64,000 nucleotides of DNA from Nepenthes gracilis. Its lineage: Eukaryota > Streptophyta > Magnoliopsida > Caryophyllales > Nepenthaceae. The position numbers were made by a program, and so were the translations under genes. The stretch's first letter is position 1; each line of letters opens with the position of its first letter. Positions 29,347 through 63,832 of this stretch are shown piece after piece. The notes beneath the pieces were generated by a model. It saw nothing but the letters and a program-made list of their open reading frames with translations, searched no databases and was not told where the DNA came from. The stretch spans positions 19,018,021 through 19,082,020 of the forward strand of contig BSYO01000014.1 in the NCBI GenBank assembly GCA_033239525.1. Reading direction: 5' to 3'.

Positions 29347-30063
29347 TGTTGGGAAAGAGCGGCGGAATACTTTCCCGATTCAATGAAGCAACAAAGAAGA
29401 GGAATAAAGAATGAACAATGAACACAAGATTTTACGTGGAAAACCCTTTTCAATCAAGGGAAAAATCACGGGACAATCAGTCCACTAAAACGTATTTCAC
29501 TATATGAGATTTAGGAGACAACAGTAGAGAACACAGAGAAATCGAAGAGCACCCTTCACCGTTTTTCTCTTCTTCTCTCATACATCAATCAAAAACCTAT
29601 TTCACGCACAGAAACTAGGTTTTTTCATCTTCCTATCACATATCACGTAAGGATAGAATTAATCCTTTCCTACAATAAGAATATTCCTGCCAGAAAAACC
29701 GCCTTCAGCGTAACTGCCTGAGATCACATATCTCCAAGAAATCTGCTGAGTTGGCATCGAACAGAATTTCTAAAACGTGCAGCCAGCTGTAGGCCGTTTG
29801 TGTTCTTTACGACCGGTCAACACTTCTGTTGACCGTCTTAGTAGTTGTCCTCCAGGATTCTCCAAAGAACCGGTTAACTTAACCTCCAAGACGGTTAACA
29901 TCGAACCGGCCATGTTAGCCGCCAATCCGGTCAACTCCCCATTGACCGTCTGAAGCCTTGCTCACCAATCCGGTCAACTTTTTGTTGACCGTCTGAGCCT
30001 TGCCCGCCAGACCGGTCTAGTTCTCAGTTTACTAGAACTTCTTCACGGGAGTGATCCCCAACA
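29347..30063 (-). repeat. 3' LTR of element A
   Basis: 717 bp, TGTTGGG to CCCAACA. Three inverted GGTCAAC/TTGACC pairs lie at 29812-29993. Confidence 0.95.
29812..29993. promoter_or_regulatory. Cluster of inverted W-box pairs in A LTR
   Basis: Three palindromic pairs in 180 bp: 29812-29837 (GGTCAAC...GTTGACC), 29927-29950 (GGTCAAC...ATTGACC) and 29971-29993 (GGTCAAC...GTTGACC). Two of them recur unchanged in the other LTR. TTGACC is the WRKY W-box core, so stress-responsive control is plausible but inferred. Confidence 0.5.
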
Positions 30064-30091
30064 AACTTCCCCTCACGACCGTGAGGAAGTT
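30064..30091 (-). promoter_or_regulatory. Polypurine tract in an inverted repeat
   Basis: The tract GAGGGGAAGTT (minus strand) abuts the 3' LTR. It lies within a 28-base imperfect palindrome whose arms AACTTCC and TCACG pair with GGAAGTT and CGTGA, leaving a 2-base bulge. The pol stop codon (30073-30075) is inside it. The same palindrome is present in element C at 58939-58966. Confidence 0.6.
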
Positions 30092-34081: not shown

Positions 34082-34104
34082 TGAAAATAAAGTTTACAAC
34101 CTGT

Positions 34105-34115
34105 CTCTGATACCA
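34105..34115 (-). promoter_or_regulatory. tRNA-Met primer-binding site, element A
   Basis: TGGTATCAGAG on the minus strand, two bases from the 5' LTR, complementary to initiator tRNA-Met. Confidence 0.9.
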
Positions 34116-34117
34116 CT

Positions 34118-34835
34118 TGTTGGGAAAGAGCGGCGGAATACTTTCCCGATTCAATGAAGCAACAAAGAAGAGGAATCAAGAATGAACAATGAACACAAGA
34201 TTTTACGTGGAAAACCCTTTTCAATCAAGAGAAAAACCACGGGACAATCAGTCCACTGAAACGTATTTCACTATATGAGATTTAGGAGACAACAGTAGAG
34301 AACACAGAGAAATCGAAGAGCACTCCTCCACCGTTTTTCTCTTCTTCTCTCATACATCAATCAAAAACCTATTTCACGCACAGAAACTAGGTTTTTTCAT
34401 CTTCCTATCACATATCACGTAAGGATAGAATTAATCCTTTCCTACAATAAGAATATTCCTGCCAGAAAAACCGCCTTCAGCGTAACTGCCTGAGATCACA
34501 TATCTCCAAGAAATCTGCTGAGTTGGCATCGAATAGAATTTCCAAAACGTGCAGCCAGCTGTAGGCCGTCTGTGTTCTTTACGATCGGTCAACACTTCTG
34601 TTGACCGTCTTAGTAGTTGTCATCTAGGATTCTCCAAAGAACCGGTTAACTTAACCTCCAAGACGGTTAACATCGAACCGGCCATGTTAGCCGCCAATCC
34701 GGTCAACTCCCCATTGACCGTCTGAAGCCTTGCTCACCAATCCGATCAACTTTTCGTTGACCGTCTGAGCCTTGCCCGCCAGACCGGTCTAGTTCTCAGT
34801 TTACTAGAACTTCTTCATGGGAGTGATCCCCAACA
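34118..34835 (-). repeat. 5' LTR of element A
   Basis: 718-bp partner of 29347-30063. Two W-box pairs are retained (34584-34609 and 34699-34722). In the third pair (34742-34765) one arm is mutated to GATCAAC. Confidence 0.95.
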
Positions 34836-43508: not shown

Positions 43509-44451
43509 CTACATGCAAAGACTGGTCTCAACCTGAACAAAATCATGAGGAGGAGAATCAGGTTGTAGCGGAGCTAAATCAAAGCTCTCTTCCGTCTTAT
43601 AATCAATGTAACTCGGTCGATCAGTTCCCAGATTGCAATCTTTCTTTCCGTCAGAAGTGATAATTCCATGATAACCATGCTTCCTTTTCCTCTGAAATAT
43701 GAGGCAAGCAACCCAATCTTCAATTTCACCATTTGGGTTCTACACAAAAATTCATAATTTAACCCTGGTAAGTAGAAGAAGAAATCAAAAGTTGAAATCT
43801 TGAAATGGTTAAATTTACATCAGCGTGCAGTTACCCGAGTTGAGCTGGAGTCCAAGAGGCGATATTCATGCATAGCCCAGCGAGTCCTACAGCCATTGGG
43901 ATACTGCCCTTGGTAGAAAGCCAAGGACTCCCTGTTGCCCACGATTTGGTTTCTTCCAGAGTCCAAAATTTGCTTGCCCTTCCCAATAAAGCTCCAATAC
44001 CCAGAACTTGTGGGTATGATTTTGCTGCATTTCATTTTGCAGAAGAAGTGCCTTTTCTCGCTCGGATCACCTAGACTCAGATGACAAAATAAGAACCCAC
44101 AAAAATAGTTCAAAGTCAAAATGGTTGGCCAATAATGCAACAAGGGCACCATAGATCTACCAGACTTTAGATGCCATTGGGGAAAAAAAAACATATGTTA
44201 AGAGTTGATTCTTGCATTAAAATCACGGAGGCGTAAAAACTTTTAGAGGGAAGAAAGAGGAGGAACAAACCAGGCACAACCCAAGGGTCAGAGTGGAAGA
44301 CATTGAAGTCAGGGATGACAGAAGCAGGTAAAGGGAGAGAGAGAGCCTTGCGCTTCAAGTAGTGAACGAGAAGCTCTTCATCTGTGGGACGGAATCTGAA
44401 ACCAATGGGCAGTTTCATTCCTCCATAACTGAAAAGTCCTTGCTTCTCCAT
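43509..44451 (-). CDS. NAC-domain transcription factor, 215 aa, three exons
   Basis: Model: exon 1 44451-44271, exon 2 44070-43835, exon 3 43739-43509, with GT-AG introns (200 and 95 bp) and a continuous frame. The product would be a nuclear DNA-binding regulator. NAC subdomain A is at residues 14-36 (LPIGFRFRPTDEELLVHYLK), B at 43-61 (PDFNVFHSDPWVVPG), C at about 69-96, D at about 100-132 (GRNQIVGNRESLAFYQ, then MHEYRL) and E at 140-160 (NPNGEIEDWVACLIFQRKRK). The ATG at 44449-44451 directly precedes subdomain A. The intron positions after subdomain B and after MHEYRL are typical of the family. In subdomain C the usual WKATGxDK segment reads WSFIGKGK, and the C-terminal region is short (about 55 aa). 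It looks nearest to short NACs of the VNI2/ANAC083 or XND1 type, which is inference. Only intact host gene seen. Confidence 0.88.
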
Positions 44452-44545
44452 CCGCACAAAAGAGAGAAACTCTAGCTTTTCCACTCTCCCTCTTAGCAAA
44501 ATTTTGGATTTTAACTCGAGAAAATTGAGGCGGCCAGTTTGGGAT

Positions 44546-44553
44546 CTTTATAG
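44546..44553 (-). promoter_or_regulatory. Candidate TATA box of NAC gene
   Basis: CTATAAAG on the minus strand, about 95 bp upstream of the NAC start codon. This would give a short 5' untranslated leader of about 60-70 bases. A second TATA-like site (CCCGTTTATAGG) lies about 20 bp further upstream. Confidence 0.5.
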
Positions 44554-44554
44554 T

Positions 44555-46195
44555 AGCACCATCCTATAAACGGGAGAGAGACAGAGAGGGAATCAGAGAA
44601 AAGAGGGGTTGTGGGCCGAAGACAGAGGTCAAAGGAAGGGTTCTTTGTGAATCCGAAAAGGTGGTGAGATTTGTGTCTCATAGCAGTTGTCTTCTGGCTG
44701 AAGAAATTAGAAATTCCCATTAAAAGAAAGCAGCTTCTTCTAGCCCGACTACAAGGACGCTAGGCAGATTTTTTTTTTTTTTAATTAAAAGAAACTATAA
44801 TTTAGATCGTTTTTTAAATTAAAATTTTGATAAGTTACTTGGGAATGTGTTATGTACTCGTCAATAGTCTTCGAAGATCACTCACTAAATTTATAGGGCT
44901 CTTTAATTCACCAATGACAGTTGTGGTACCTCATCTTTCAAACACCATTAAAAGTAAAAACTCTCGTGCCGTCCTACCGCCTCTTAAAATTAAAGAATAT
45001 ATTCAGACATTATTGTTAACCCTATTACCCCTATACACATATTATTTTCTATTATTATTTTTTTGTTACTACACATGGACATATTATTGTCAGTAAGTTG
45101 GTTAGCATGCTGCGCCTAAGATGTATAAATACATCACCACTATTTATCAATGAAAAGAAAGAATATTACTCTCTCTATTTTACTATCCCTACATCTCTCT
45201 CATCTCTGCTCTTCTCTCTCTCGATTCCCCTTCTCCTTTTCCCTTCTTTCCTTAATTCCCTTTCTCTGTTCTCTGTCTCTCCCTTACCATCGTATGTATC
45301 TCCTCTCTCCTCGATTCCTCCTTTACCAGGACTCATCTTCCCTCAACAATCTCTATGCTTTGCCGTCGATCTTCCACGTGAGACCATGGAGCACGTATTA
45401 GAATGGATCATGCTGTATTTATCAATCTTGTATTTCTGGAAGATTAATTTATAGAATCATTATAAATTTATATTTTTAAACTATGATTGTTTGTAAATTA
45501 ATTTTTAAAATTATTTATTATTATATAATCACTAAGATGAGCTATTAATAAATAAGATAAACTTATTATACTAACCAATGAGAAGTAGGTTCATGTAACT
45601 AGTATTGTGGGCGTTTTATGAAAAAGTAGAAAATTTTCATTACAAAACGAGGTTTTTAAACTAGCTTAACCAAAATACTCTTGTATGGGAATTTATTTAC
45701 ATTTGTATCTAGAGCTCTCTCATGAGATATGTTCAATTGATCATTTAACTTGAGACTATCAGACAATTCTAAGTTTATATTACTAATGTGTTTAATGATT
45801 AATGTATTTTGGTATTATTTATACACTCTAAAGTTTTATGGAGATGAATAAATAATCAGTAAAGAATCCATTGCTCTAAGCAAGAAGTTGTGCCTTATAC
45901 ACATATCTGCCTTAGGAAAGTTATGAATCATAAAAGAAATTTTTTATTCAATTAATTAAATCACGTCGCCGGAGTCACGACATAAATAAATAAATAATTT
46001 AGGTGTTTGACATTTTCCTGCCGTAAGATTGGAGGATATGGAATAATTTGTTTACATATTCATTTGATTGATAGTTGATCTCCAACATCTAGGCAATCAT
46101 AACGTAATATTAGTTGTGACTCATAATATACAAAAGCAATTGGTCAGTTTACATGGTTAATCTTAAAGAAAAATAAAATAGTTTAATTTAACTAT
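44555..46195. other. Intergenic, upstream of NAC gene
   Basis: Contains the NAC promoter region, a T-rich run near 44769-44781, a pyrimidine-rich stretch at about 45160-45350 and then AT-rich sequence. No other gene or repeat boundary was recognised. Confidence 0.45.
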
Positions 46196-46327
46196 TGATG
46201 GGTACATCAAAAATGGGCTGGCTCCACAAAAGTCAAAGGCCCAAGACGACGGTCAACACTCTAACGGCCCAATTGGAAACCGAGCCCAAGAGCTGAAAAG
46301 CCCAAGGCGGTCAACCATAGCACCTTG
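46196..46327 (-). repeat. Truncated LTR related to the 10463 solo LTR
   Basis: It begins TGATGGGTACATCAAAAATG and continues with GGGCTGGC and GACGGTCAAC motifs, matching the reverse complement of the 3' end of the solo LTR at 10463-11823. Only about 130 bp remain. The other end abuts gag-like sequence. Confidence 0.6.
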
Positions 46328-46395
46328 TATAAGCTTCACCATAGCACCTCTGTTGCAGCATACATGGATGAGTTCGAGACACTCTCTATTCAAAT
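46328..46395 (+). pseudogene. Gypsy-gag-like stretch, left of element G
   Basis: The frame reads YKLHHSTSVAAYMDEFETLS, then IQ, like the SVAEY-x-EFE-x-L region of Ty3/Gypsy gag proteins. The last five bases are the CAAAT target duplication of element G. With G removed, the same frame continues at 54621 into the ECA3-like copy. It is too short for certainty. Confidence 0.45.
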
Positions 46396-49309
46396 TGTGA
46401 CGACCCGAACTCGAGTCACTTGGCCCAGTTCAGACCGATCATGATAAAACTTAAAATTTCAATCATCATCATAAATTCAATATCATAATTATAATTCCCA
46501 TAATAAATTCATTCAAGATAATGAATATATACAATATTATTATCCTGCAATTACAACCCTAATAACATATCCAAATAAAACCTTGATCGATGAACTGTCT
46601 CTAGAACTTCTTCCCACGAGCCTTTATCTCTACTATCTTCTCTATATTGAATTTTTGTAACTAAAGTAGGATCCAACGGTCCACACTATATAATCAACTC
46701 AATCTGGAGCCAAGAAAATATAATGGTGAACCAAAACCCAACAAGTGATATTAATAAAAAATACTTAATAAATAATAAATATCTTGGATATAATGGTTAC
46801 AACATTTTTATAATAATCTAACTATATCCGAGAAGCCACAACACATCGTAAACACGACTTCAATCAAAAGCAAGATAGGTCTCCCTGTACCCTTATATGA
46901 TAACGATAACAAAATTGTCAATAACATGCGAAAACTCCACAGAATCCGACATCAGGAGATATGCGGGGGTTTCCTGGTCCGAATGTCAGTGTAAACAACC
47001 TGAATATCAAATACCGATAAATAACATGAATTTCACTGAATCTGAATATTGTAAAATCTGACACATAGATTCTACCGAATATAAATCATGGATTTCACAA
47101 AATCCCAAACTCATGAGGTATGAACAATAACGAATATCATAATAAATATCCTTGGACCTTATTCTGCCACCGTGAATTAAATGCTACATTTTATACCCCC
47201 AACGGTTGGGTAAGTGCAATGAGGTTATCCATGATATCTAATTACCCCTACAGTCCTCTTAGAGGCTGTACCCATAGCATGTCGATATCATCTGTGATAC
47301 TTATCGCTAAATGATATCCCTGATATCATCTCTTATAATGGTCACATGGTTATAAGCATCAATCTTCAATAAACAATATACCTCATTATCACCATGATAC
47401 AAAAATCAGTATCGGATAAGTGTAGACCAATCTAAGGTACCGTAACCTCTCATTCAACTAGATACCTTAGTATTTTTATACGCTCTCCTTAACATTGATC
47501 GTAAGAAACTAATAATTTAACTACTCACGCAATCAAGATAACACAAAGAAGGCTTTACAATTTTAATGAAAGAATTGTCGCTTGGTGCTGACAATGACCG
47601 TACACACACAATCAAGACCAACACAAAGGAATTTATCATGGAATGATGAAAGAATAAACAAGAACCAAGAATAACATATTTTGACCAATTTAACTGGTTC
47701 TTCCATTTTGTCCCGATAAACAAAATCTTTTACTAAGGCCAAAATTTAATTACCACATTTGATTTATATTGTCCCAAAAATTCATGTACTGATTCCCAGA
47801 CAAGATGGTATAATACTTCAGTCATCTTATATTAATGAACCCGTACTCTCATATATTCATCATTACCATAACATATCAATATTTACTTCACTAGAAAATT
47901 ATGTCCATATATATATATATCAAATTGACAAACCTGCCAAACTCACACATGAACATATATATCAATAATTAAATAAATATATATATATAGGTATGTATGC
48001 ATGTATTTGTATGTGTATATATTTGTATATTTATACGTAAGTGATGTATATATATATATATACACCCACGGCTGTTCTCTCCCTCTCTATCCGCATAGTA
48101 GCAGCCCAACAGTAATTCACACACGCGCACATACACATACGCGTACATATACCTCACGTATGCCATATAATTATACATACTCATTCATTTGCCACTTCGT
48201 CACCGTCCTCGCCCAATGTACAGTCTTCGGTCAGTCCAAACAGGGCGTAGTGCTCTGTTCTTCACTTCCTTTTCGATTCTCAACAAAACTACAAACTTTC
48301 ATCAAACCGCATGAAAAATAATTATTTAATTCCATGATTCCAAAATTTTCAAGCCTCAATACATCATGAACCTCTCAAAATTTCTCGTTTTCCCACCGTC
48401 CCGAGCCAAAGACTCTGTTTCCCTTTTTTTCTTTTTTTTTTTTTTCAACAGTTTTCACCGAATCTCCTCATATAACCAATTTCAATTAGCATCATGAAAA
48501 TTGAGGGAGGGAATAAGCGAAGTTGTAAGCAAGAAGATAAATGACAATAAAAATGGAATCACTTGCAATAGAGAAGAATGACATTAAAGGAAATTCACTT
48601 TCCTACTTTACACGGTTACAGCAACACAGCTAGGGTTAGTGGCATCACTAGCTTCAGCACAACTCAACAGCGGCTTCGAATAGTCATAGAGACTTTCTCC
48701 GGCACTGATTAATCGATGGCGACTGCAATAGTAAATGTGGCCTGGTCTCCATCTCTCTAATTTCGTCCGTAATCACAACTGAAGAAGGAGCAGAAGAAAA
48801 GGAGGCAACGATTTTAAAAAGGCTATGAGGGAAACTGAGAGGAGAAAAATGGGGCTGGGACTGAGAGGAAGAAGGGAACGTGGCTGATCGGCAGGAAGAG
48901 TCCTCTTCGCCACACAAATCGGCCGATGCTTTCTTCATCTCTCCTCTCATTCTTCGTTCTTTTACTTCCCCTTTTCCTTCATTTTTTTTACATATTATTA
49001 TTATTATTATTATTATTTTATTCTATTTACTTTTATTATTATTATTATTATTATTTTATTATTTATTATTATATTCATAATTAATATTTTATAATAATGT
49101 ATTATAATTATTATTTATTGCTAATTGTTATTAATATTTATTAGAATATATTTTACTCCAATTTATTATTATTATTATTTATTATTATTTATTAATTATT
49201 TTATACCCATTATTATTTATAATAATTATTAATATTAATATTTTAAATTATTTATTACTATATTAATTCAATTATTATATAACCCGAGTTAAACTATCGG
49301 GATGTTACA
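46396..49309 (-). repeat. 3' LTR of element G
   Basis: 2914 bp. It contains a TTA-rich microsatellite block at about 48990-49080 and a TA-rich block at about 47900-48060, both near the LTR end that would be upstream in transcription. Confidence 0.9.
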
Positions 49310-51669
49310 ATCTTCCTCTTTTAAAAGAATTTCACTCTTGAAATATAGGTCTTGATATTCTTTCATAAGGAACCATCTCTATTGGAATCAAACATGCATC
49401 AAACATTTACTCATTTCAAAACCAACGGCACATAATTGCAACATGCAATAGGTCATAACACACTACTGAAATATTACTATTAAAGGGGTCTGTTTCTACC
49501 TAGTATTTACATAAATCGTGTCCACAATCTTTCTGATCTTCAACGTTCTTACAGTCAACTAATAATTGCATTACCCATTTATGACAGCCACACTTGTCGC
49601 CCCAATACAATTCCAATACAACCATGGTATATAATTTGAATCGTTAATTTAAGCACTAGCATCCACTTCATTGTACCAAGTCATTCACCTCAATAATAAT
49701 CCCGTCGATCAAAATTTTAACCGTCCTACAATCTAAGCCTGCTCTTGATTGTCCCATATAGGTCAATTCTACAACTCATCCTTAATCGCTCTTATTGAAC
49801 TCTCCGAATCCTTAATATAGTCATCCAAAAATATTATATAAATTAGTAAATTTTCAACCTCCAAGTATATCAATCATAAATCGGTGGTTAATCCTTACCG
49901 GTATAAACTTGATTGACATCATATTTCAATATTGCATCATAACCAAATAGAATTCCAAAGTTACATATCTAACCATCTCTAAAGGATACAATCCAAAGTT
50001 ATAATTATTTTTATAACCTTCAACTAATATTATCGTCTTCTGACTCATACAATAACCATCTCAAATTTAAATTCTACTAGTGGGTTCTTCTAGACTAAAT
50101 TCTTATTAAAAAAATAACTACTAAAAATTAGATTTTTAAGTTTTAATACCCAAAATTATAATTTTCACTGATCTAGATTATGAATTAAATTTTTTTTTTG
50201 AGTCGGTCTCCTTAATTGTTAGCTTTAACTTTTTAAAGTTATAAAATACTTTCTTCCAAATAGAACAGTTTTAGAATGTCATTGTCTCCAATAAACAAAA
50301 CTCAAACCTTAAAATTTATCAAAACCGTACCTCCTCGAATTTTATATAATGATTCTCTAATTTTGACATCTTTCCTACAATCCTGCAATTTCTTAATTAA
50401 TTTCAATCCCAAATTATAACAAATCCCATGAATGAATTTCATATATAATATTTACACTTTACTCCAAACAATTTCCTCTAAAATATTACTACTCTACCTT
50501 AGAGACTTAAGATAATTTTTTTTATAGCAAATCTTCGACTCTCTATAGTTGTTCCCCTACTTTGATTATAATTCTTGAATTCTTCCATAGTATATAGTTA
50601 GGCTTGATGACGACAAACACGATCGTTATTATTATTGTAGCATTAGCCCCTTAAATTCCATTGTTGCCATCCAATGAGGTCTTTGGAGTTGATGTAATTC
50701 ACTGAGTTAGCTAAATGGAGAAGCTGATCCCTCACACGATATTTGCATGCAGCACATTTGAAAACCTCTGAACTGATAATGATGTCTCTACTTGATGATT
50801 CATCATACTCCATTGTAGATATGACGGCTCCAGATCATCAACAACTAACCTAAATAGATGGCTGATGTGTAACATGTCAACAATCGGGGTTGAAACCCTC
50901 CTAATCGAGAATGATGGAAATTCTACTTGATCCTACGATTGTCGCCGGTCGAACAGAGTTGGCATCTTCTTCTTTGGCATACGACAATGCACGACGCATA
51001 GCATTAGGTTATGAGAAATCCGTAAATCTTTTGTCGCTTATAATTTAAAAAAGGTGATGGATTGATCTCGTAATATGTAGCAATAGACTTTTGTGGTCCT
51101 CTTCTCTTGAATAGTTGAACGATAGAATTTTGCACAATCACCGCCTGAGATCCGCAAGTCAATGTATTGAAAGCTTGTATTATAAACTGAACTACTCCGT
51201 AGGACTGCCATTATGAATTTTATAGGAGTCTCATATGCTCGTATTTTATTATCTCGACAACCTGTAAAATAAAAAAAGAATTTAAAACCTAACCTATACT
51301 AGTACTCTGGCCTACCAATTTTTACCTAATCCTAAAATATCCTAGACCCTAGACCCAAAATATATGATACATTCCACGACTTAAAATCGACCACGATTTT
51401 TTAAGTCCTCAAGGAAGCGTTATAAAATTCTTCTTGATTTAGAACAATCCCTGATATATTAAAATTTTGAACCACTTAGCGAAATCAAATTTCAAAACAC
51501 CAAGTCTTGAAAGTCTTCCAAAATACATACTATTCTTGACCCAGACCTAATTTATTAGAAATAAATCTAAATGCACCAATATCATTGAATTGTCTAATAT
51601 CCTCAAATATTATCAACTCCAAAAATCCTCAAGTGTTCACACAAAACCTTAATTCTCTGATACCATAAC
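49310..51669 (-). other. Non-coding interior of element G
   Basis: No frame longer than a few dozen codons and no recognisable gag, protease, integrase or RT motif on either strand. Its ends carry the polypurine tract and tRNA-Met primer site. If expressed it would act as RNA only, mobilised by another element. Confidence 0.7.
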
Positions 51670-53265
51670 TACGACGACTCGAACCCGAGTCACTCGACCA
51701 AGTTCAAACCGATCACAATAAAACTTAAAATTTCAATCATCATCATAAATTCAACATCATAATTATAATTTCCATAATAAATTGATTCGAGATAATGAAT
51801 ATATACAATATTATTATCCTACAATTACAGCCCCAATAACATATCCAAATTAAACCTTGATCGATGAACTATCTCTAGAACTTTTTCCCGCGAGCATTTA
51901 TCTCTACTATCTTCTCTATCTCGAATTTCTGTAATTAAAGTAGGATCCTATGGTTCATACTATGCAATCAACTCAATCTGGAGCCAAGAAAACGTAAGGG
52001 TGAACCCAAACCCAGCAAGTGATATTAATCAAAAACACTTAATAAATAATAAATATCTCGAATATAATGGTTGCAACATTTCTATAATAATCTAACTATA
52101 TTCGAAAAGCCACAACATTTCGTAAACACGACTCAAACCAAAAGTAAGATAAGTCTCCCCAGACTCTTATATGATAAAGATAACAAGATTGCCAATAACA
52201 TATGAAAACCTCTCAGAATCCGACATTAGGAGATATGCAGGAGTTCCCTGGTCCGAGTATCAACGTTAACGACCTGAACATTTAACATCGATAAACAACA
52301 TAAATTTTACTGAATCCGAATATTGTAAAATCTGACACATAGATTCTACCAAATATAACTCGTGGATTCCACCGAATTCCAAACTCATGAGGTATGAACA
52401 ATAACGAATATCACAATGAATATCCTTGGACCTTATTTTGCCATCGTGAACCAAAGGCCACGTATTTATACCCCTAACGGTTGGGTAAGTGTAATAAGGT
52501 TATCCATGATATCCAACTACCCATACAGTTCTCCCAGAGGCTCTACCCGTAGCATGCCGATACCATCCGTAATACCCTTCGTCAAATGACATCCCTGATA
52601 TCATCTCCTATGATGGTCACGTGGCTATAAGCATCACTCATCAATAAACAATATACCTCATAATCACCATGATACAGAAATCAATATTAAATAAGTGTAG
52701 ACCATGATAAGATACTGTAACATCCTATTCGACTAGATACCTTAATAATTTCATATACTCTCTTTAACCTTGATCGTAAGAAGCTAATAACTTAATTACT
52801 CATGCAATCGTATAATACAAAGAAGGCTTTATAATTTTAATGAAAGAATTGTTGTTCGATGCTGATAATGATTATACATACACAATCAAGACCAACACAA
52901 AGGAATTTTTCATGGAACGATGCAAGAACAAACGAGAACTAAGAATAACATATTTTGACCAATTTAACTAGTTCTTTCATTTTGTCCCAATAAACAAAAC
53001 CTTTTATTAAGGCCAAAATTTAATTACCATATCTAATTTATAGTGTTGCAAAAATTCATCTATCGATTCCCAGACAAGATGGTATAATACTTCAGTCATG
53101 TTATATTAATTAACCCGTACTCCCATATATTCATCACTACCATAACATATCAATATTTACTTCACTATCAATCATGTCCATTTATATATATCAACTTAAC
53201 AAACCGGCCAAACTCATACATGAATATATAAATCATTAATTAAATATATATATCTATATATATTT

Positions 53266-53311
<46 letters not shown>

Positions 53312-54451
53312 CTTACATATAAATATACAAATATATATGCATACAAATATATACACAAACGTATACCCATGGCTGTGCTCTCCCTCTCTATCCGCACAGT
53401 AGCAGCCCAGCAGTAATTCACACATGCGCACATACACATACGCGTACATATACCTCACTTATACCATATAATTATACATATTAATTTGCCACTTCGTCAC
53501 CGTCTTGGCCTAATGTATAGTCTTCGATTAGCCCAAACAGGGCGCAGTGCTCTGTTCTTCCTTTCCTTTTCGATTCTCAACGAAATTACAAACTTTTATC
53601 CAACCGTATGAAAAACAATTATTTAATTTCATGGTTCCAAAATTTTCAAGCCTCAATACATCATGAACCCCTCAAAATTTCCTGTTTTCCCACCGTCCCG
53701 AGGCAAAGACATTATTTCCCCAATTTTTTTTATTTTTTTTCAACAGTTTCCATTGAATCTCCACATATACCCAATTTCAATTAGCATCATGAAAATTAAG
53801 GGAGGGAAGAAGTGGATTTGTAAGCAAAAAAGAGAAACGACAATAAAAAGGGAATCACTTGCAACAGAGGAGAATGACATTAAAGGGAATTCACTTGCCT
53901 GCTTTACACGGTTACAGCAATACGGCTAGGGTTAGTAGCATCGTCGGCTTCGGCACAACTCAACGGCTGCTTCGAACAGTCACGGCGACCTTCTCCGGCA
54001 CCGATTAATCGACGGCGACGAAAATAGTAACCGTGGCCTGGCCTCCCTCTCTCTGATTTCGTCCGTAATCACAATCGAAAACGGAGTAGAAGAAGAAGGA
54101 GGCAACGATTTTAAAAAGGGGATGAGGGAACCTAAAAGGAGAAAAATGGGGTTGGGACCGAGAAGAAGAAGAGAAAGTGGCTGATCGGCAGGAGGAGGAG
54201 TCAGTGCCACACATATCGGTCCGTGGTTTCTTCCTCTCTCCTCTCCTTCTTTGTTTTTTTGCTTCCTCTTTTCCATCATTTTTTTTACATATTATTATTA
54301 TTATTATTATTTTATTCTATTTACTATTATTATTATTATTTTATTTTTATTTATTACTATTATATTCATAGTTAATGTTTTATAATAATTTGTTATAATT
54401 ATTATTTATTGCTAATTGTTATTAATATTTATTAGTATATATTTCACTCCC

Positions 54452-54485
<34 letters not shown>

Positions 54486-54615
54486 TGTTACTTATTATTA
54501 ATTATTTTATGCCCATTATTAGTTATAATAATTATTAATATTAATATTTCAAATTATTTATTAGTATAGTAATTCTATTACTATATAACCCGAGTTAAAT
54601 TATTGGGGTGTTACA
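51670..54615 (-). repeat. 5' LTR of element G
   Basis: 2946-bp partner of 46396-49309. It contains a longer TA microsatellite (53269-53306) and TTA runs at about 54288-54340 and 54455-54485. Confidence 0.9.
53269..53306. repeat. TA microsatellite
   Basis: About 19 uninterrupted TA units inside the 5' LTR of element G. The matching place in the other LTR has only short TA runs. Confidence 0.9.
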
Positions 54616-54620
54616 CAAAT

Positions 54621-56435
54621 GCCAGTGCTTCCTCAAGAGAGTAGTACATCGTTGTTGAAGTTGGTCTTAAAGCAATTCGATGATTTGCTTGTAAAGATAA
54701 TGATTGCTGCTGCCTTTAGTTCATTCTTTTTGGCAATGGTTAATGGAGACACAGGCTTGACGGCATTTTTGGAGCCCTCGGTTATATTGATGATACGGGC
54801 TGGAAATGCAGCAATAGGGGTCATTACAGAAACAAATGCTGAGAAGGCTATTGAGGAGTTACAAGCATTCCAAGCTGATGTTGCAATTGTTCTACATAAT
54901 GGTTGTTTTTCAATATTATTTACAACAGAACTTGTTCCAGGTGATATTGTAGAAGTTAGTGTGGGATGCAAAGTTCTAGCTAACATGAGAATGATTGATC
55001 TGTTAAGTGATTAATTACGTGTTGATCAAGCGATTCTCACAGGTACAGTTGTAGTGGCTGGTTGTGCAAGGGTCGTGGTTATCGGAGTTGGCTCTAATAT
55101 TGCCATGGGCAGCATACGTGAGTCAATGTTAAGAACTGAAGATGAAGTGACACCATTGAAAAAGAAGCTGGATGAATTTGGTATATTCCTAGCCAAGGTT
55201 ATAGCAAGTATATGCGTGCTGGCGTGGCTTGTAAACATTGGCAACTTCCATGATCCTTCTCATGGTGGCTTTTTCCGAGGAGTTGTTCATTATTTTAAGA
55301 TTATAGTTGCTTTAGCAGTTGCAGCAATTCCAAAAGGGCTCCTTGCTGTTGTCACCACGTGTTTGGCTCTTGGAACAAAACAAATGGCATGCTTGAATGC
55401 TATTGTTAGATCTTAGCAATCAGTAGAGACGTTAGGGTGCACAACAGTGATATGCAGTGACAAGACTGGAACTCTGACCACCAATATGATATCTATATCA
55501 AAGATATGTGCGTTCTACTCTCTGTACCCTGCTCCTGTTACTATTGAATATGGTGTGGGAGGAACAACGTATGCCCCAAAAGGTGTAATTTTTGATAATG
55601 CAGGAATGCAGCTTGAGCTTCCAGCTCAACTGCCTTGCCTTCTCCGCATGGCCATGTGCTCAGCCCTTTTCAATGAGCCATCCTACAATATAATCCAAAT
55701 AAAAGGGACTATGAAAAAATTGGCAAGTCAACTGAAGTAGCACTTCGTGTACTAGTAGAAAAGGTCGGTCTTCCTCGATTCGATTCTATGCCTTCAGCTC
55801 TACATATTCTTAGCAAGCATGACCATGCATCATACTGCAACCATCACTGGGAGAACCAATTCAAAAAGGTCTCTATATTAGACTTTTTTCGTGATCGTAA
55901 AATGATGAGTGTATTGTGCACCAGAAAGAAATTTGTAATTATGTTTTCGAAAGGTTCCCCAGAAAGTATAATGTCTAGATGCACAAGCATTTTGTGCAAT
56001 GAAGATGGTTTAATATTTCCATTAACTTTCAAAATTTCAGCTGAATTGGAGGTTAGATTTAACAGTTTTGCAGGAAAAAAAACTTTGAGATGTCTTGCTT
56101 TAGCACTCAATTGGATACCTGTGGGTCCATAGATGTTTGTATTTGAGGATGAGAAAGATCTTACACTTATTGGGTTGGTTGGGCTGCTTGATCCACCAAG
56201 AGAAGAAGTGCAAGATGCTATGCTATCATGCCTGAATGCTGGCATATTTGTTATAATTGTAACAGAGGACAACAAGGCTACAGCAGAATCATTTTGTTGC
56301 AAGATAGGAGCTTTTGATCACTTGGATGATTTTGTTGGATACTCTTACACTGCTTCTGAATTTGAAGAACTTCCAACATTACAGAAGACAATTGCATTGC
56401 AACACTTGGCTCTCTTTATGAGGGTTGAACCATCT
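54621..56435 (+). pseudogene. Processed copy of ECA3-type Ca/Mn P-type ATPase
   Basis: Intronless copy of part of an ER/Golgi-type P2A ATPase gene. It starts near KLVLKQFDDLLVKI and ends near FMRVEPS, lacking the N-terminus and everything after the middle P-domain. Readable landmarks: [64 protein letters not shown] (phosphorylated Asp codon 55459-55461 intact), ASYCNHHWENQFKKV and IGLVGLLDPPREEV. Lesions: stops at 55012, 55414 and 56130, a frameshift near 55680, an in-frame loss of about 34 residues at about 55042, PEGLP changed to PKGLL (55329-55343) and TGDN changed to TEDN (56262-56273). Plant ECA3 genes have many introns, so this came from mRNA. Confidence 0.9.
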
Positions 56436-56650
56436 CTTCCAGTTTTTGCCACCACGAAGCAACTTGTGAGATACAGCTTGGGCTCCGTTGCTCTCGGTTC
56501 TCTTGCTCTATCCTTCATTGAGTCCATCTGCTTTATATTTGAGTCAATTCGCCGTACACGTGAGGTTTCCTATACAGTCCCCAATGACTAGGTAAGGAAA
56601 GCAGTTTATCATTCTTTTCACTTTTCTTTGAAATGTAATTGGAGATTCCT
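56436..56650 (+). pseudogene. Choline-transporter-like (CTL) gene fragment
   Basis: It continues the ECA3 frame without a stop into KQLVRYSLGSVALGSLALSF, then IESICFIFESIRRTREVS. This is the conserved membrane and loop region of plant CTL/choline-transporter-like proteins (pattern YSLGS-ALGSL-SF-ESIR-ESIRR). A TAG at 56589-56591 then interrupts, where I expect a Trp or Ser-Trp, and the same frame goes on with RKAVYHSFHFSLKC. Only about 70 codons of the donor gene are present. Assigned by motif memory, not alignment. Confidence 0.65.
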
Positions 56651-57171
56651 CAGTCCAACCCATATTCAGACAGTAGCAAAGTTGGGCCAGGATGATCTGC
56701 AGTCTCAAGATGCTGCTGCTTAGCTTGAGTACTTTGAATCCAAGGCTTTTGAACAGCAAGAAGCTGCCAATGACAGATCTCGGAAGCCTGATGCATTGAT
56801 CACCAGCAACAGCCATCTAAGTGTTTCAGACTTACTCAATTACATAAACCCGAGTTCTGCTGATCATGGGAGAAATTCAACAACTTCAAGTGAAGTAAAT
56901 GAAACTGATGAATATGTACTTGCCACTGATGAAGCAAGTTTGCTGCTCCAGGTCCTTAGTCTCATATTCTAGAAAAGCACCGGCTTTCCTAGGTTGCTAA
57001 GAGCCCCTCAAGATTTGCAATTTATTAATTGTTCCATATTGAGAAATCTGATCGATTTTGCTCAAGTTTGGTTTGAAACAATTTCCGTCGGAGACGATGG
57101 ATGGCAGCCAGATCAATAGCCTAGATCCCGTTCCTATGGTCGTCATTTGAAGCAGCGACATCACTTTTCAA
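56651..57171 (+). pseudogene. CLU/TSS-type (clustered mitochondria-like) fragment
   Basis: Same frame as the CTL piece. It reads VAKLGQDDLQSQDAAA, stop, [16 protein letters not shown], then [15 protein letters not shown], matching the region after the TPR repeats of plant CLU/FRIENDLY/TSS-family proteins. Further on come GDDGWQPDQ, stop and PRSRSYGRHLKQRHHFSK, resembling the later DDGWQPVQRPRS region of the TSS branch. Stops occur at 56721, about 56970 and 57118. No introns are visible. The donor is a large cytosolic protein family linked to mitochondrial distribution or growth control. Confidence 0.8.
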
Positions 57172-57222
57172 AGATTATCCCTCATTCAACTTTGAGGATA
57201 AGGTTCTTTTGATGGAGAAAAT
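57172..57222 (+). pseudogene. Gypsy Pol C-terminal tail
   Basis: Out of frame with the CLU piece, this reads DYPSFNFEDKVLLMEKIML and a stop. It resembles the FPxFxLEDKV segment at the end of plant Ty3/Gypsy polyproteins, and is followed by a purine-rich run and then TG. This suggests that the captured gene fragments lie inside a Gypsy element. Confidence 0.5.
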
Positions 57223-57224
57223 AA

Positions 57225-57700
57225 TGTTATAGGCCCTTCTATTTTCTATTTTTTTGTTTTTTTTTTTCAGGTTTTCTGTTTCCTATTCCCCTTTTTGTTT
57301 TCTATTCCAACTGCTTTTTGTTTGCTTTCCTACTTTCTGTTTATGTTACATATGCCTTTGCTACAAGGGGCCACCGGGCATCTGCCTATTAGTATATATG
57401 TAGCCCATTACTATTGCGGTAGAAAGGAGAAAAAATATTTCCCTTCTTTTGGCTTCTTGATTCTTTCCCCTCCCTGACACATTAAGCCTCTCTCTCTTAG
57501 TCACGTTCCCTTTTCTTGTTCCTCTCTCAGAACCCTCTATTCTCCCTCTCCCTCACATCTGCTCCTCCCTATGTCTCACCCTTTTCCCTCTTTCCTCCTC
57601 TGTTGAACTCCTCTTCTCCGTCTTCTTCTCTGTTTTCACCTTCTTCCTCTGTTTGCCGTGGTCACCGCCTACTGTGCACGTAACAGTAGGTTATGATTCT
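57225..57700 (+). repeat. Possible 3' LTR of the Gypsy carrier
   Basis: The sequence starts TGTTATAGGCCC just after the purine-rich run and is strongly pyrimidine-rich to about 57650, with an untranslated-leader-like CTCTCTCT composition. No partner LTR or end was found, so this rests on position only. Confidence 0.25.
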
Positions 57701-58077: not shown

Positions 58078-58938
58078 TGATGGCGGATAACGGACGACCT
58101 ACTGACCTGGATACAAGAACAATCGTTCTGTTGGCTGGAATGGACGGCCAATTGATAAAGCACATAAGTACTGTGAAGTGGAGGCAAGAAAAAAAAGAAA
58201 TGAACACCAAATACTTTATGTGGAAAACCCTTCTGAAATAAGGGAAAAATTACGGGACACTAAGTCCACAAAGGATCACTAGGTATGAGAACAAATTACA
58301 GGAGGCGAAAATAAGAACAGAGTAAAAGTAAACAAAATTTCTCACACTTTATTTTCACTCACAGCTCTCTTTCTTTTCACTTTCTCTTCTCTTTTTTTCT
58401 CACTATCACCTTCTTCTCTACTTATCTGGTGTCTTCTCTTTTGTTGAGTGTGCATATATACACATGTTCCTCACCATAGCTTAGCTTGGTGGTTGGGGCT
58501 CAACTTTCAAGGTCTGCATGTGTGCATACGTATGCCCTGTCCTGTAACAGGCGGCGCATGCCTGCTCCTGTAAACCGATCAGCCTTTGGAGTCCCAATAA
58601 TGACATCTACTAACTGTTTAATCGAGTAGATCAACTATACCCCTTTTGAAATTTGACAGTCATTCAGACCTTCTATATTCAGTCGGTCAACTCTATTGAC
58701 CGTCCTCTCATATTGGCCAGTCAATCACACCGTTGACCGGTCGAAACAGTTTATCCTGCTTCTTTAGCAGAGTTAGTCGTCTCACGACTTTTGTCGGTCA
58801 ACATATTGACCGACAGAGTTGACCATCAGAAGGTTCCAGTTAACATAGTTGACCGGGATTCCTTCCTCTTAGCACACACATCTGTTCCGTCCAAGACCCT
58901 TGGTCATAAGGATTTCCACATGGGAGTGATTCCCAACA
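58078..58938 (-). repeat. 3' LTR of element C
   Basis: 861 bp, TGATGGCGG (decayed from TGTTGGC) to TCCCAACA. Carries inverted GGTCAAC/TTGACC pairs at 58682-58704 and 58793-58814. Confidence 0.92.
58682..58814. promoter_or_regulatory. Inverted W-box pairs in C LTR
   Basis: GGTCAAC...ATTGACC pairs at 58682-58704 and 58793-58814, with further TTGACC cores at 58733, 58819 and 58850. The partner LTR keeps similar but mutated copies at 63583-63740. Confidence 0.45.
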
Positions 58939-59205
58939 AACTTTTCCTCACGACCGTGAGGAAGTTAAATCCATCATCCCGGCTAGTCTGCAATATGCTT
59001 CATTCTTCCCCTTCGGTAGAATCTTGGTCATCATATCTGCCACGTTTTCTTCAGTGTCAACCTTTTCCAGTGACAGTAGACCGGCTTCTAATACATCTCT
59101 CACCCAATGATATCGCACATCAATATACTTTGATCTGGAATAGAGTGAGAAGTTCTTGTAGAGATGAATGACACTCTGGCTGTCACAGAGTACCGCATAC
59201 CTTTC

Positions 59206-59724
59206 CTATTCAAGGCTCAATTCCTGAACGAACTTCTTCATCCACAATATCTCCTTGCAAGCTTCTGTCACGGTAATGTACTCGGCTTCAGTAGTGGAAA
59301 GAGCAATACATTTTTGTAACTTAGACTGCCAGAAAATTACCCCTCCTGCAAATTTCACGAGGTATCCTGAAGTGAACTTGCAACTGTCAATGCCTCCAGC
59401 CATATCAGCATCCGAGTAGCCCACCAATTGAGACTTGTCACTTACAAGACACAAGCACCTATTGGAAGTTCCTCGGATATATCTCATAATCCACTTTATC
59501 GCGAACCAATGCTCCTTCCCTAGATTAAACAAAAATTGGCTGACTATGCCAACATGTGCTATGTCTAGCCTGGTGCATACCAGGGCATACATGAGGCTTT
59601 CTACGGTTGAGGAGTAGGGAATGCCTCTCATGTATGCTTTCTCTTCGTTCGAAGATGGCAACTGGCGACTCCTCAACTTGTGATGATTTACAAATGGAAT
59701 GCTGACAGGCTTGGACTTATCCAT
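59206..59724 (-). pseudogene. RT C-terminus and RNase H of element C
   Basis: Open minus frame from MDKSKPVSIPFVNHHKLRS through YSSTVESLMYALVCTRLDIA to the RNase H motifs YSDADMAGGIDSCKFTSGY and CIALSTTEAEYITVTEACKE. It lacks the last part of RNase H, which lies past a stop at 59206. Confidence 0.88.
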
Positions 59725-60036
59725 ATTGAATCGTTAGAGCATCTTCTCAAAATAGTTTTCTTGAAACAACTATAGTCTCCTTGCCTCCCGATCGCGAATG
59801 ATTCTAATATCAAGAATCTGGTTTGCCAGTCCGAGGTCTTTCATAGCAAAGGATTGCCCAAGTTGCTTTTTTAACAACTTTATCCGGGTACTGTTTTGTC
59901 AAACAATCAGCATGTTGTCCATGTAATGGAGAATGATAATAAAATTGTCTTCTGAAAATCTTTGTATAAAAACACAGTGATCACAAGTAGTTCGCCGGTA
60001 TCCTTGACTAATCATGACTGATTTGAACTTTTTCTA
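59725..60036 (-). pseudogene. RT catalytic region of element C, mutated
   Basis: Between the two open frames, the complement of about 59918-59932 reads YMDNM, where element A has YVDDM. The second catalytic Asp is Asn, and a stop follows within a few codons. RT activity is lost. Confidence 0.75.
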
Positions 60037-61184
60037 CTACTGTCTTGGAGCCTGTTTCAATCCATACAGACTCTTCCTTAGACGATAGACTAGTTGCTCA
60101 TTCCATTTAACCTTGAACCTTTCATGCTGCTCCATATAGATTTTTTCTTTTAATTCACCGTGAAGAAAGGCTATCCGAACGTCCATCTGTTCCACTTCCA
60201 GATTCTGGGCGGCTGTCAATCCCAACACAACTCTTATGGAAGACATCTTCACCACTGGAGTAAAGATCTCATCGAAGTCGATTCCCTTCCGTTGACTGAA
60301 ACCTTTCACAACTAGCCGTGTCTTGTATCTCGACTGCATAGTGTCTTCGGACGTCTTCAGTTGAAAGACCCACTTGTTCTTTAAGGCTCTCTTCCCCTTA
60401 GGAAGCTTGGCTAAGTCAAATGTGTGATTTTTATAGAGAGAACACATTTCATCCTTCATGACTTCTAGCAATTTCTCATTATTCTGGTCCTCCATAGCCT
60501 CTTCATAAGTTTCAGACTCTCCGACATCAGTGAGCATAACATACTCACTAGGTGATAGATGGACGGACGACCGTCTGTTTCGTGAGGATCGTCTGACAGG
60601 CAGATCATCGGCCGGTTGAGGGATGACTTCATCCTGGTCTTCATTAGGAGTCATTATTTCCTCTCCATTACAATCGATCGCCTCAGGACCATTGTCCTCG
60701 TCTTCCAGAGATACCGGACGGACAACTTTGACACTTACGTTGTCTGTCAGCTCGCCATCACACTTGACTTTTCTACCAATGTCCTTGATCGTTTCATCTT
60801 CAACGAAGGTTACATCCCTTGACTGGACAAGTCTTCTACCAGCTGGATCATAAAATCTATACCCTAACTCATCTTTGCTATAGCCCAGAAAAGACGACTG
60901 CATCGTCTTTGGCTCCAACTTTATCTTTCATCTCTTGGGACATGGATAAATGTTTTACATCCAAACACTCGTAGATGATCATAAGATGGCTCTTTGTTCG
61001 ATCGTATCTTCTTCGGCACTTCATCCTTCAAGGGTTTACTGGGTGACCTATTTATGATGTAGGCTGCCGTCTTCAATGCTTCGACCCAGAAGTGTCCAGG
61101 AAGCTTAGCTTTGGAGAGCATGCACCGTATTCTTTCTAGAAGTGTGCGGTTCATCCGCTCAACCACTCCGTTCAACTGTGGCAT
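60037..61184 (-). pseudogene. Integrase core end, linker and RT start of element C
   Basis: 61184-60921 reads QLNGVVERMNRTLLERIRCM with the integrase catalytic Glu and ends RVFGCKTFIHVPRDER. After a shift, 60918-60037 gives the integrase C-terminus (GYRFYDPAGRRLVQSRDVTF), a variable acidic linker, and the RT fingers and palm (KNKWVFQLKTSED, EIFTPVVKMSSIRVVLGL, MDVRIAFLHGELKEKIYME), ending at a stop after LKQAPRQ. Confidence 0.88.
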
Positions 61185-61407
61185 CTTTGGAGGTGTTTTC
61201 TGATGCCTAATACCATGTGACCGGCAATAGGTATCAAAGGACCCTATGTATTCACTGCCATTGTCGCTTCAGACGGTCTTCATTTTCTTCTCCGTCTGTC
61301 ACTCAATAAGGGTATAAAATTGCTCAAATATACCGAGGACCTAGTCCGTGATTTTTAACGGATAGACTCAGTTTTCTGGAATAATCGTTAATGAAAGAGA
61401 TAAAATA

Positions 61408-62106
61408 TTATGCTCCACCAAACGACTTCTCTTTGAATGGTCCACTCACATCTATGTGGACTAGATTAAGCAGTTCTGCCTTTGGAGCGGACAATTCTCC
61501 ATGAAATGAGACTCCCTTTTGTTTGCCGGCTAAGCAGTGAGGACACGTCCTTAGTCTATCCTCCTTCACTCCGGCAATAAGGCCCTTCCTAGCTAAATGA
61601 TGCAGTCCACATTCACTCATGTGGCCCAACCTCCTGTGCCATAAATTCTCAATTTTCTTGCTGATTGCAGCGTTTATATCTCCGGCCATTGCGAACACCT
61701 TCATAATATACAGGCCAGAGTACCTTTTCCCTCTTACCACTATCAGAGATCATCTGGTAAGTTTCCACTCACCTTCACAGAAGGTACTATAATAACCTTT
61801 ATCATCCAACCGACCAGCTGAGATGATATTGAGCCTAATGTCAAGAACATGTCGAATATCCTTTAACATCAATTTCGTCCCGTTATTAGTAACCAGTACA
61901 ACGTCACCCTCATTAATAATTTGGGATGTTCCTTCGTTGCCCATCCTTATTACTCCAAAATCCCCTAGAGTATAGGATGTGAACAATTCCCTTCTTGATG
62001 TGGCGTGTAAGGTAGCACCAGAATCAATCACCCAGCCGGACTCCTCGTGCGTCAGATTTGCCACGTTATCTTCACATGTCAACAGGAGATCGCTTTGTGT
62101 GACCAC
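61408..62106 (-). pseudogene. Protease and pre-integrase region of element C
   Basis: 62106-61750 starts MVTQSDLLLTCEDNVANLTH and carries the protease site GWVIDSGATLHATSRREL, intact at D-S-G. 61740-61408 gives the HHCC zinc region LWHRRLGHMSECGLHHLARK and TCPHCLAGKQKGVSFHG, ending at a stop just inside the integrase core (GPFKEKSFGGA). The second integrase Asp region (about 61265) reads with a stop. Confidence 0.87.
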
Positions 62107-62109
62107 TGA

Positions 62110-62945
62110 GACGGAGGACTTATCCTCACTTCGTCCCTTTTTTCGTTTCTCCTTTTCTACGTTTTCTCGCTTCCACTTGAAGCATTACTTCTTAATGTGG
62201 CCTTTTTTGCCACAACGATGGCACTCAAGGTTTTGATACATTGAACGAGATTTGCTGCATCTTTTTACTGCAGGCTTCTGACTTCGTCCTCTACTCCGTC
62301 CCCTAGACTCGGTCACAAGTACTTCACAATGAGAAGACGTTGAGGCCCCTTATGACCGCCTTGACTCATTTATGAGTAAGGAAGTGATGACCTCATCCAA
62401 TTTGAAAGTGTTTTTTTCCAAACAGTAACATACTGACAATATGGTCATAAGAAGCTGGTAGAGAGGCTAGCAGCATCAATGCCTTGTCCCCCTCCTTGAT
62501 TATCTCATCAAAGGCAGACATCTGTGTTACGATCCTATTAAATTCGTCCAAATATTTTTTAAAGCTGTCACCTTCTGACAATCGCAGACCATAGAATTAT
62601 TTCTTTATATGTAGCCTGGTTGTCAAGGATTTAGACTTATATCGGCTCTCCGACTTTTTTTACACATCCGCTGGATTAGTCAAGCCAAGGACCTCCGGAG
62701 CATGTTGTCCGCCAGGCATAATTTGATAGTGCAATTGGTAAGATCTCGTTTATCTTGTCAGTTCTCCACTGATAGGCTTTCCGGCTTATCTTCCTTCTTT
62801 TTTCTTCGGTGCTTTGATTGTTCCTTCTCTAATTAAGATGTTCTTCATCCTTTCCTACTAGAGGATGAAGTTGCCCTACCCATTAACCTGTTCTACACTG
62901 CATGGTAAGTTCTTTGAGGATGATGACGCCATTCAGACAAAATTA
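62110..62945 (-). pseudogene. Gag of element C
   Basis: The best frame (62581-62393) reads MSEGDSFKKYLDEFNRIVTQ, then LMLLASLPASYDHIVSMLLF. Upstream decayed codons reach the start near 62930, next to the primer-binding site. The nucleocapsid near 62190-62240 matches the zinc knuckle but has a lesion in a Cys position and a stop. Confidence 0.8.
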
Positions 62946-62954
62946 TCAACCGGA

Positions 62955-62965
62955 CTCTAATACCA
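62955..62965 (-). promoter_or_regulatory. Mutated tRNA-Met primer-binding site, element C
   Basis: TGGTATTAGAG on the minus strand, two bases from the 5' LTR. One C-to-T change relative to elements A, B and E. Confidence 0.8.
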
Positions 62966-62967
62966 CT

Positions 62968-63832
62968 TGTTGGCAAACAACAGGCGGCCTACTGATCAGG
63001 ATACAAGAACAATTGCTCTGTTGGTCAGAATGGGCGACCAACTGATAAAACACATAAGCACTGTGAAGTGGAGGCAAGAGAAGAGAAATGAATACCAAAT
63101 ATTTTATGTAAAAAATCATTCTGACATAAGGGAAAAACAACGGGACACTAAGTCTACAAAAGATCACTAGGTATGAGAACAAATTACAGGAGGTAAAAAT
63201 AAGAACAGAGCAAAAGTAAACAAAGGCCCTCATACTTTGTTTTCACTCACAGCTCTCTTTCTTTTCACTTTCTCTCATCTATTTTTCTCACTATCACCTT
63301 CTTCTCTACTTATCCGCTATCTTCTCTTTTGCGGAGTGTGCATATATACACATATATATACATGTCCATTATCATAGCCGAGCTTGGTGGTTGGGGCTCA
63401 ACTTCCAATGTCTGCATGTGTGCATGCGCATACCCTATCCTGTAGCAGGTGACGCATGCCTACTCATGCAAACCGATCAGCCTTTGGAGTCTCAAGAATG
63501 ACATCTACCAACTGTCCAATCAGGTAAGTCAACTGTACCCCTTTTGAGATTTGACAGTCATTCGGACTTTCCATATTCAGTCGATCAACTCTGTTGACCG
63601 TCCTTTCATATTAGCCGGCCAATCACACCATTGACCGATCGAAGCAGTCTACTTTTTCAGCAGAGTTAGTCATCTCACAACTTTTATCGGTCAGTACATT
63701 GACCGACGGAGTTGACCGTTCAGAAGATTCCGGTCAACATAGTTGACCAGGATTCCTTCCTCGTGGCACACACACGTGCTTCGTCCAAGTTCCTTGGTCA
63801 CAAGAACTTCTACACGGAAGTGATCTCCAACA
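62968..63832 (-). repeat. 5' LTR of element C
   Basis: 865-bp partner of 58078-58938, TGTTGGCAAAC to CTCCAACA, followed by the CGTTA duplication. Confidence 0.92.

Follow-up and report, generated by a model that had tools for sequence, protein, structure and literature searches.

The origin of a chimeric retrocopy was analysed in a 64,000-nucleotide (nt) stretch of Nepenthes gracilis DNA, referred to as the window, which is plant DNA rich in nested long terminal repeat (LTR) elements. The fusion at 54621-57157 very probably belongs to a dead copy from a non-autonomous family derived from Ty3/Gypsy elements, in which pol was replaced by spliced host cDNA captured through template switching. 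Pieces of three unrelated host genes without introns, ECA3/SERCA, choline-transporter-like (CTL) and CLU/TSS, were confirmed to lie back to back there, as an earlier first-pass annotation had read them. Donor genes and sibling copies were searched for in the 752 Mb host assembly of N. gracilis. The captured features of the window are as follows.

54621-56429, plus strand: captured spliced cDNA of an ECA3/SERCA-type Ca2+ ATPase, with 17 donor exon blocks over 54644-56423.
55036-55048, plus strand: point at which ECA3 lost 87 nt in frame, from one CAGGT copy of the spliced mRNA to the other, a loss common to C25, C36a and C21.
55676-55677, plus strand: single frameshift, one base missing relative to the donor (donor comparison).
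56430-56637, plus strand: captured CTL cDNA (PF04515), with a donor exon match of 84%.
56625-57157, plus strand: CLU/TSS-like captured cDNA that continues the frame of CTL, with donor exons on C2 from 56706 onward.
56941-57045, plus strand: foreign piece standing in place of the donor's CLU sequence and present at C16 and C3 loci too.

The ECA3 donor is an intron-bearing gene at C13:3459370-3484651, whose 17 exon blocks match the window at 87-95%. NCBIfam and PDB matches gave a SERCA-type Ca2+ ATPase from 54628 to about 56435; the ATPase family was thus tested, and the gene name ECA3 for the piece and its donor is taken as an assumption. The CTL donor (C6:2777322-2788014) has PF04515 spread over several exons, and its intron of about 1 kb is absent where the siblings C30, C36b and C28 cross the exon junction. 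The CLU donor is an intron-bearing gene on C2 that matches exon by exon, its introns being absent in the copy and its peptide lying in the frame of the window; the start of the CLU piece and an apparent internal in-frame deletion near 56670 are read from weak peptide matches. The third piece presumably derives from CLU/TSS; in sibling locus L037, whose CLU-like piece is longer, TPR was matched (6e-11) and eIF3_p135 weakly (0.0015, under the cut-off), as expected of the longer protein. Donor introns inside the copy, which would have spoken against the earlier annotation, were looked for and none was present. As the donors carry introns and the copy does not, spliced mRNAs were the templates; among the donors, this intron loss concerns ECA3, CTL and CLU. 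The CLU piece had no match in PDB, and the scans revealed no relative of an ECA3 piece in viral contigs and none of the CLU piece in viral or bacterial/archaeal contigs.

The donor comparison bore out a single frame across the fusion, interrupted by one 1-nt deletion and seven stops. At the ECA3-CTL join both parts lie in one open piece of 152 amino acids (aa) at 56133-56591, in which Pfam found PF04515 of the choline transporter (E 1.5e-7) besides a weak match to the ATPase (PF00702), and the CTL-CLU join is also in frame, judged by the own frame of the CLU donor. The same joins occur in several copies, which argues against an assembly error. The 87-nt stretch lost from ECA3 contains an 86-nt exon, and CTCACAGGT and TTTTCAGGT lie 87 nt apart in the spliced donor mRNA. 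A jump between both CAGGT copies reproduces the observed sequence exactly with the frame kept. Exon skipping alone was rejected as the origin of this loss, because removal of an 86-nt exon would shift the frame.

The foreign piece inside CLU is about 105 nt long and matches loci on C16 and C3, therefore it was derived from a further source. Its carriers L035 (5001-5093) and L036 (4964-5026) are scanned stretches without a Pfam match. Locus L054 (1-2001) shows H+-PPase, then E1-E2 ATPase, then H+-PPase again, that is, one gene split by another; like the foreign piece in CLU, this suggests a jump out and back.

The divergence of the window from its donors was 7.6% for ECA3 (128 of 1676 sites), 15.9% for CTL and 14.7, 16.7, 10.0 and 17.9% for four pieces of CLU. 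Because CTL and CLU diverge from their donors more than ECA3, the three captures were probably made at different times and later brought together, and from the sequences CTL-CLU is probably older than the ECA3 capture, unless the true parental gene was lost. Dates were calculated with 1.3e-8 changes per site and year (PMC5664825), all change being assigned to the copy; slower plants would give older dates. At that rate the ECA3 capture is about 6 million years old, the nested element G described below about 5 and the siblings about 3.5-8.

The search for other copies in the host genome, proposed with the first-pass annotation, revealed a dispersed LTR family. The window query gave at least 58 matches in the assembly with 40 of 93 candidates scored, and a query with the C2 element gave at least 61 (40 of 192 scored). 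Two copies on C18 and further ones on C24 and C6 carry stretches across ECA3-CTL-CLU at 83-85%. Paired LTRs were found in nine siblings, with Kimura two-parameter (K2P) distances of 0.090-0.205, and sibling C6b has a clean 5-bp target duplication, GAGTT, with TG..CA ends. By eye, a AATGGTGCTCTCATTGAGAC-like motif follows the 5' LTR in eight of the nine, and a purine-rich stretch precedes the 3' LTR. With paired LTRs, TG..CA ends and a 5-bp duplication, the family is an LTR retrotransposon. In copies with both ends the captured DNA sits between the family leader and the family tail. A region of about 2 kb ahead of ECA3 in the C25 element (L045, 1390-3500) is without a Pfam match.

The flanks of the fusion in the window comprise the following features.

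45016-45396, plus strand: same-family LTR upstream of the gag-like piece, with the end GCACGTATTA followed by a start resembling a primer binding site (PBS), both sibling-like.
46322-46395, plus strand: remnant of the element's own gag-like open reading frame (ORF), in frame with ECA3 and shared with siblings C30 and C36b.
46391-46395, no strand: target site duplication (TSD) CAAAT of G, second copy at 54616-54620.
46396-54615, minus strand: nested non-autonomous LTR element G, with LTRs at 46396-49309 and 51670-54615.
57166-57224, plus strand: C-terminal end of Gypsy pol (FNFEDKV) with a polypurine-like tract, here in another frame than CLU.
57225-57685, plus strand: 3' LTR of the capturing element (TGTTATAG...GTAACA), 79-81% identical to the C30 and C36b LTRs.

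The tail DYPSFNFEDKV, which the first-pass annotation read as Gypsy-Pol-like, is the C-terminus of a Gypsy pol, although its frame in the window differs from that of CTL and CLU. The pol-tail query matched the genome at least 40 times, with 40 of 70 candidates scored. At locus L049, of which 2 kb were examined, Gypsy RNaseH, Integrase_H2C2 and SH3_Tf2-1 precede the same tail, the SH3 frame ending in FPSFNLEDKV; since pol domains read into the same tail there, the window tail is a Gypsy pol end. The other 18 loci scanned gave no pol match.

Element G is unrelated to the fusion and not part of it. Its 2.9-kb LTRs are 87.5% identical (K2P 0.139), a tRNA-iMet-like PBS lies on the minus strand at 51655-51665 (primer site TGGTATCAGAG), and the longest stop-to-stop piece of its 2.36-kb interior is 86 aa. 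G inserted no more than about 25 nt from the join of the gag-like piece and ECA3. As it split the fusion element, coordinate arithmetic makes 46395 and 54621 former neighbours, so that the gag-like frame continues into ECA3.

The host-gene content of the family was profiled at 19 loci, scanned in three frames with stops read as X and a Pfam limit of E 0.05 in one batch and 0.01 otherwise. Ten loci were chosen by similarity to the captured DNA or tail, six by rank order of the tail query, passing over loci already chosen, and three from other matches; the sample is not random, because the tail query is biased towards the window's relatives. Host-gene matches were carried by 16 loci, pol by one (L049), and neither L035 nor L036 had a match. 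The 16 loci are listed below.

L037: CLU-like.
L039: ATPase, BAH, Agenet.
L040: ABC1 (ABC1 kinase), K_trans (K+ transporter), ALMT, weak ThiF.
L041: K_trans, ALMT.
L042: FKBP, Xan_ur_permease.
L043: CTL.
L044: CTL.
L045: ATPase, Ank_2 (ankyrin; below the Pfam cut-off).
L046: PGI, ATPase (Cation_ATPase below the Pfam cut-off).
L047: PGI, CTL.
L048: ATPase, ABC1, K_trans.
L050: Sec16.
L051: Xan_ur_permease, weak alpha-amylase (below the Pfam cut-off).
L052: raffinose synthase, Ank_2 (below the Pfam cut-off).
L053: raffinose synthase.
L054: H_PPase, ATPase.

The 87-nt ECA3 scar is common to the window, C25, C36a and C21, and the next detected host piece after the scarred ECA3 is CTL in the window, Ank_2 in C25, ABC1/K_trans in C36a and BAH/Agenet in C21. 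In C36a and C21 more than 90 aa separate ECA3 from the next detected piece, and a further piece may hide there. In C30 and C36b, CTL-CLU occurs and ECA3 gave no match. One ECA3 capture with four different neighbours implies recombination between elements or repeated later joins, and these sequence comparisons indicate that captured pieces were reassorted between copies. The first-pass annotation had proposed a Gypsy-type element that captured three host mRNAs. Capture of spliced mRNA, the in-frame fusion and the later decay hold; a one-time capture by one element does not fit the dispersed family, the unequal divergences, the CTL-CLU copies without an ECA3 match and the varying neighbours of the ECA3 capture.

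The element layout would be LTR, leader with a remnant gag-like ORF, host-gene pieces, pol tail and LTR. As deduced from this structure, particles would co-package host mRNAs, and the reverse transcriptase would leave the element RNA for a host mRNA and return to it at short matches, of which the 5-nt CAGGT at the 87-nt jump may be an example. An autonomous partner would mobilise the chimeras in trans, and jumps among co-packaged chimeras would reshuffle the pieces. Less surely, chimeras keeping one long open frame might amplify better, for instance by escape from nonsense-mediated decay or through Gag translation aiding packaging, and not by any function of the host pieces. Six of the donor families we take to be membrane proteins (ATPase, CTL, K_trans, ALMT, permease and H_PPase). 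One may speculate that mRNAs of membrane proteins are favoured since particles assemble near the endoplasmic reticulum (ER). For yeast, the first step of particle assembly is described as the entry of Gag into the ER by co-translational translocation (PMC12786077).

The reading frame of the joins was then compared with chance. Of 13 donor-donor joins, 11 placed by Pfam positions and the two of the window, 11 are in frame against a chance of one third (p=2.1e-4); for pieces at most 60 aa apart all seven are in frame (p=4.6e-4). The out-of-frame joins are H_PPase/ATPase in L054 and amylase/permease in L051, the amylase being below the cut-off. Left out were L040 ThiF (below the Pfam cut-off), BAH/Agenet (probably one donor), and L041 and L047, whose joins are the same as those of L040 and L046; ABC1/K_trans of L048 and L040 was counted once. 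Ank_2 (L045, L052), Cation_ATPase (L046) and the alpha-amylase of L051, a miss, were counted despite Pfam scores below the cut-off. In C36a and C21 one frame has the fewest stops almost from the leader to the end, running across the joins.

These data leave evenly balanced the proposal that this Gypsy lineage shuffles genes in series: it would keep taking pieces of spliced host mRNA and trade them between co-packaged copies, and only chimeras with one long open frame would amplify. If this is true, families of multi-domain fusion ORFs arise without selection on domain function. The rival that fares best is a gene-capturing LTR family without a frame filter, whose in-frame joins reflect chance or sampling; it is considered rather unlikely. 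The small set of 13 joins with two misses, tail joins near chance (6 of 15) and the lack of visible amino-acid constraint are in its favour, whereas the three frames were scanned equally in obtaining the excess of in-frame joins, and the stop depletion in a single frame crosses the joins in C36a and C21.

Several observations weigh against the template-switch capture and the frame pattern. No perfect 5-bp target duplication was found at six of the nine siblings, and those of C18a (TATAT, in AT-rich DNA) and C21 (TGTTA, the LTR's own start) are doubtful. The gag-like stretch of the first-pass annotation is true element sequence, its 72-73 nt recurring in C30 (86%) and C36b (90%), and is in frame with ECA3 across G, yet it matched no Pfam gag model; the gag label of 46322-46395, given by motif, is our assumption. 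The jumping of the reverse transcriptase is deduced from structure. L047 and L041 share joins with L046 and L040, yet their adjoining pieces lie in different frames, which we read as later indels. Of 15 loci, six keep the frame where the captured DNA meets the tail (C30, C36a, C2, C24b, C6b and L052) and the others do not (the window, C36b, C18a, C24, C21, L050, L051, L053 and L054), with C25 outside this count; the proportion is near chance, and later indels blur it. Finally, for the window copy only the 3' LTR is secure, and no 5' LTR is proven to be its sister. The 5' LTR that the first-pass annotation proposed to look for has a counterpart in the family LTR at 45016-45396, which is 67.7-77.2% identical to the 3' LTRs of the nine siblings and 70.8% to that of the window (K2P 0.387). 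As a sister it was rejected, about 85% identity being expected from the 7.6% of ECA3. The first weak alignment of both LTRs was reached by 0 of 300 dinucleotide shuffles and 9 of 500 block shuffles, and sub-pieces of the alignment were not significant. By its sequence this LTR more likely belongs to another member or is a recombination product.

Chimeric retropseudogenes made by a long interspersed nuclear element (LINE) and later taken up by an LTR element are very unlikely as the source. Template jumps of LINEs are able to fuse three transcripts (PMC2104539), but by eye no A tract was seen at the joins of the window, and the position of captured DNA between family leader and family tail in both-ended copies also speaks against this route.

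A host-domesticated fusion gene under selection is slightly less probable still. The long in-frame fusions and the reported transcription and translation of maize Bs1 (PMC13317346) would suit it; the window copy, however, is dead, with seven stops in 849 codons (read with the frameshift). At 65 stops expected per substitution per site these correspond to a divergence of about 0.11, consistent with neutral decay, and one frameshift was observed against about three expected at the rate of the LTRs of G, which gives no clear argument either way. The ECA3 differences between donor and window by codon position are 44, 40 and 44, so that the open frame rather than protein function may be favoured. 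The copies also show little difference among codon positions. In one set of copy-copy pairs the positions were alike in most, and one of ten pairs reached p<0.05 toward position 3 (window-C18b, 0.049); in a second set one of six pairs gave p=0.02 in the opposite direction, away from position 3. Since the copies are nearly star-like, the test has little power and selection while mobile is not measurable. TGES and the later ATPase part both serve in pumping. The captured ECA3 lacks the TGES motif and all beyond SERCA residue ~681, which excludes a working pump. There is no support for the making or usefulness of the fusion protein that, in the first-pass annotation, the element encoded or could have encoded.

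Entry by a DNA transposon (Pack-MULE or Helitron, which also carry gene fragments; PMC13317346) or by ordinary rearrangement has a negligible probability, given the 17 ECA3 exon blocks joined without introns, the lost CTL intron and the LTRs that bound the siblings.

Other elements were also observed in the window. A different repeat at 46196-46321 separates the 45016-45396 LTR from the gag-like piece; it starts with TGATGGGTACA and recurs at window 11700-11823 (minus strand, 73%) and at L016 2698-2823 (86%). Upstream, a minus-strand exon with a NAC (NAM) domain at 44167-44547 is likely part of an ordinary host gene. A nested element at 58078-63832 has the TSD CGTTA and LTRs 84% identical, and its interior is 72% like the copia element at 30044-34142. 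The copia element at 29346-34835 has LTRs 97.9% identical, the most similar pair among the window LTR pairs listed, and an uninterrupted gag-pol frame of 1142 aa on the minus strand.

That plant LTR elements capture genes is known; the literature consulted treats this mainly through counts or individual cases. With a family of many members, several donors each, visible reassortment and an in-frame excess, a single genome is enough to test two questions: by what mechanism templates are switched to host mRNA, and whether the continuity of an open frame, through RNA decay or packaging, decides the spread of chimeras. The family also shows a route for the bulk origin of multi-domain ORFs, and is a warning that plant gene annotations could come to include fusions of this kind. 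The kind of event is known from Bs1; its scale, the reassortment and the frame pattern were not found described. No multi-donor, reassorting family with a frame excess was found in the literature searched, from which subscription papers were excluded, so this is weak evidence of absence.

Among the known systems, rice and sorghum have 672 and 1,343 host genes inside LTR elements (PMC3726574); the abstract of that survey counts captured genes and does not mention serial multi-donor fusion, reassortment or frame bias. Of the retroduplicated NLRs of pepper, about 72% are located in non-autonomous LTR elements that have no gag or pol potential (PMC5664825); the focus there is one gene family, NLR, whereas the fragments fused here come from unrelated genes. 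Complex LTR elements of Triticeae were fused by abnormal template switching in reverse transcription (PMC1950507), there from two parent elements and not from host mRNAs. The tripartite LINE chimeras of Magnaporthe join several transcripts by template jumps (PMC2104539); they use LINE machinery, and the abstract describes one tripartite chimera with no mention of captured coding genes. The closest system is maize Bs1, an LTR retroelement in which segments from three host genes, a proton ATPase among them, form a chimeric gene (PMC13317346; also named in PMC7264820 and PMC11963269). As in Bs1, several host-gene fragments are fused in one LTR element, with a spliced-mRNA origin established here for ECA3, CTL and CLU. 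The Bs1 donors are pieces of H+-ATPase, glucanase and xylan endohydrolase, and the donors found here differ. Unlike Bs1, the present family, a different element, has host matches at 16 of 19 loci, about 14 gene families in differing sets, and reassortment.

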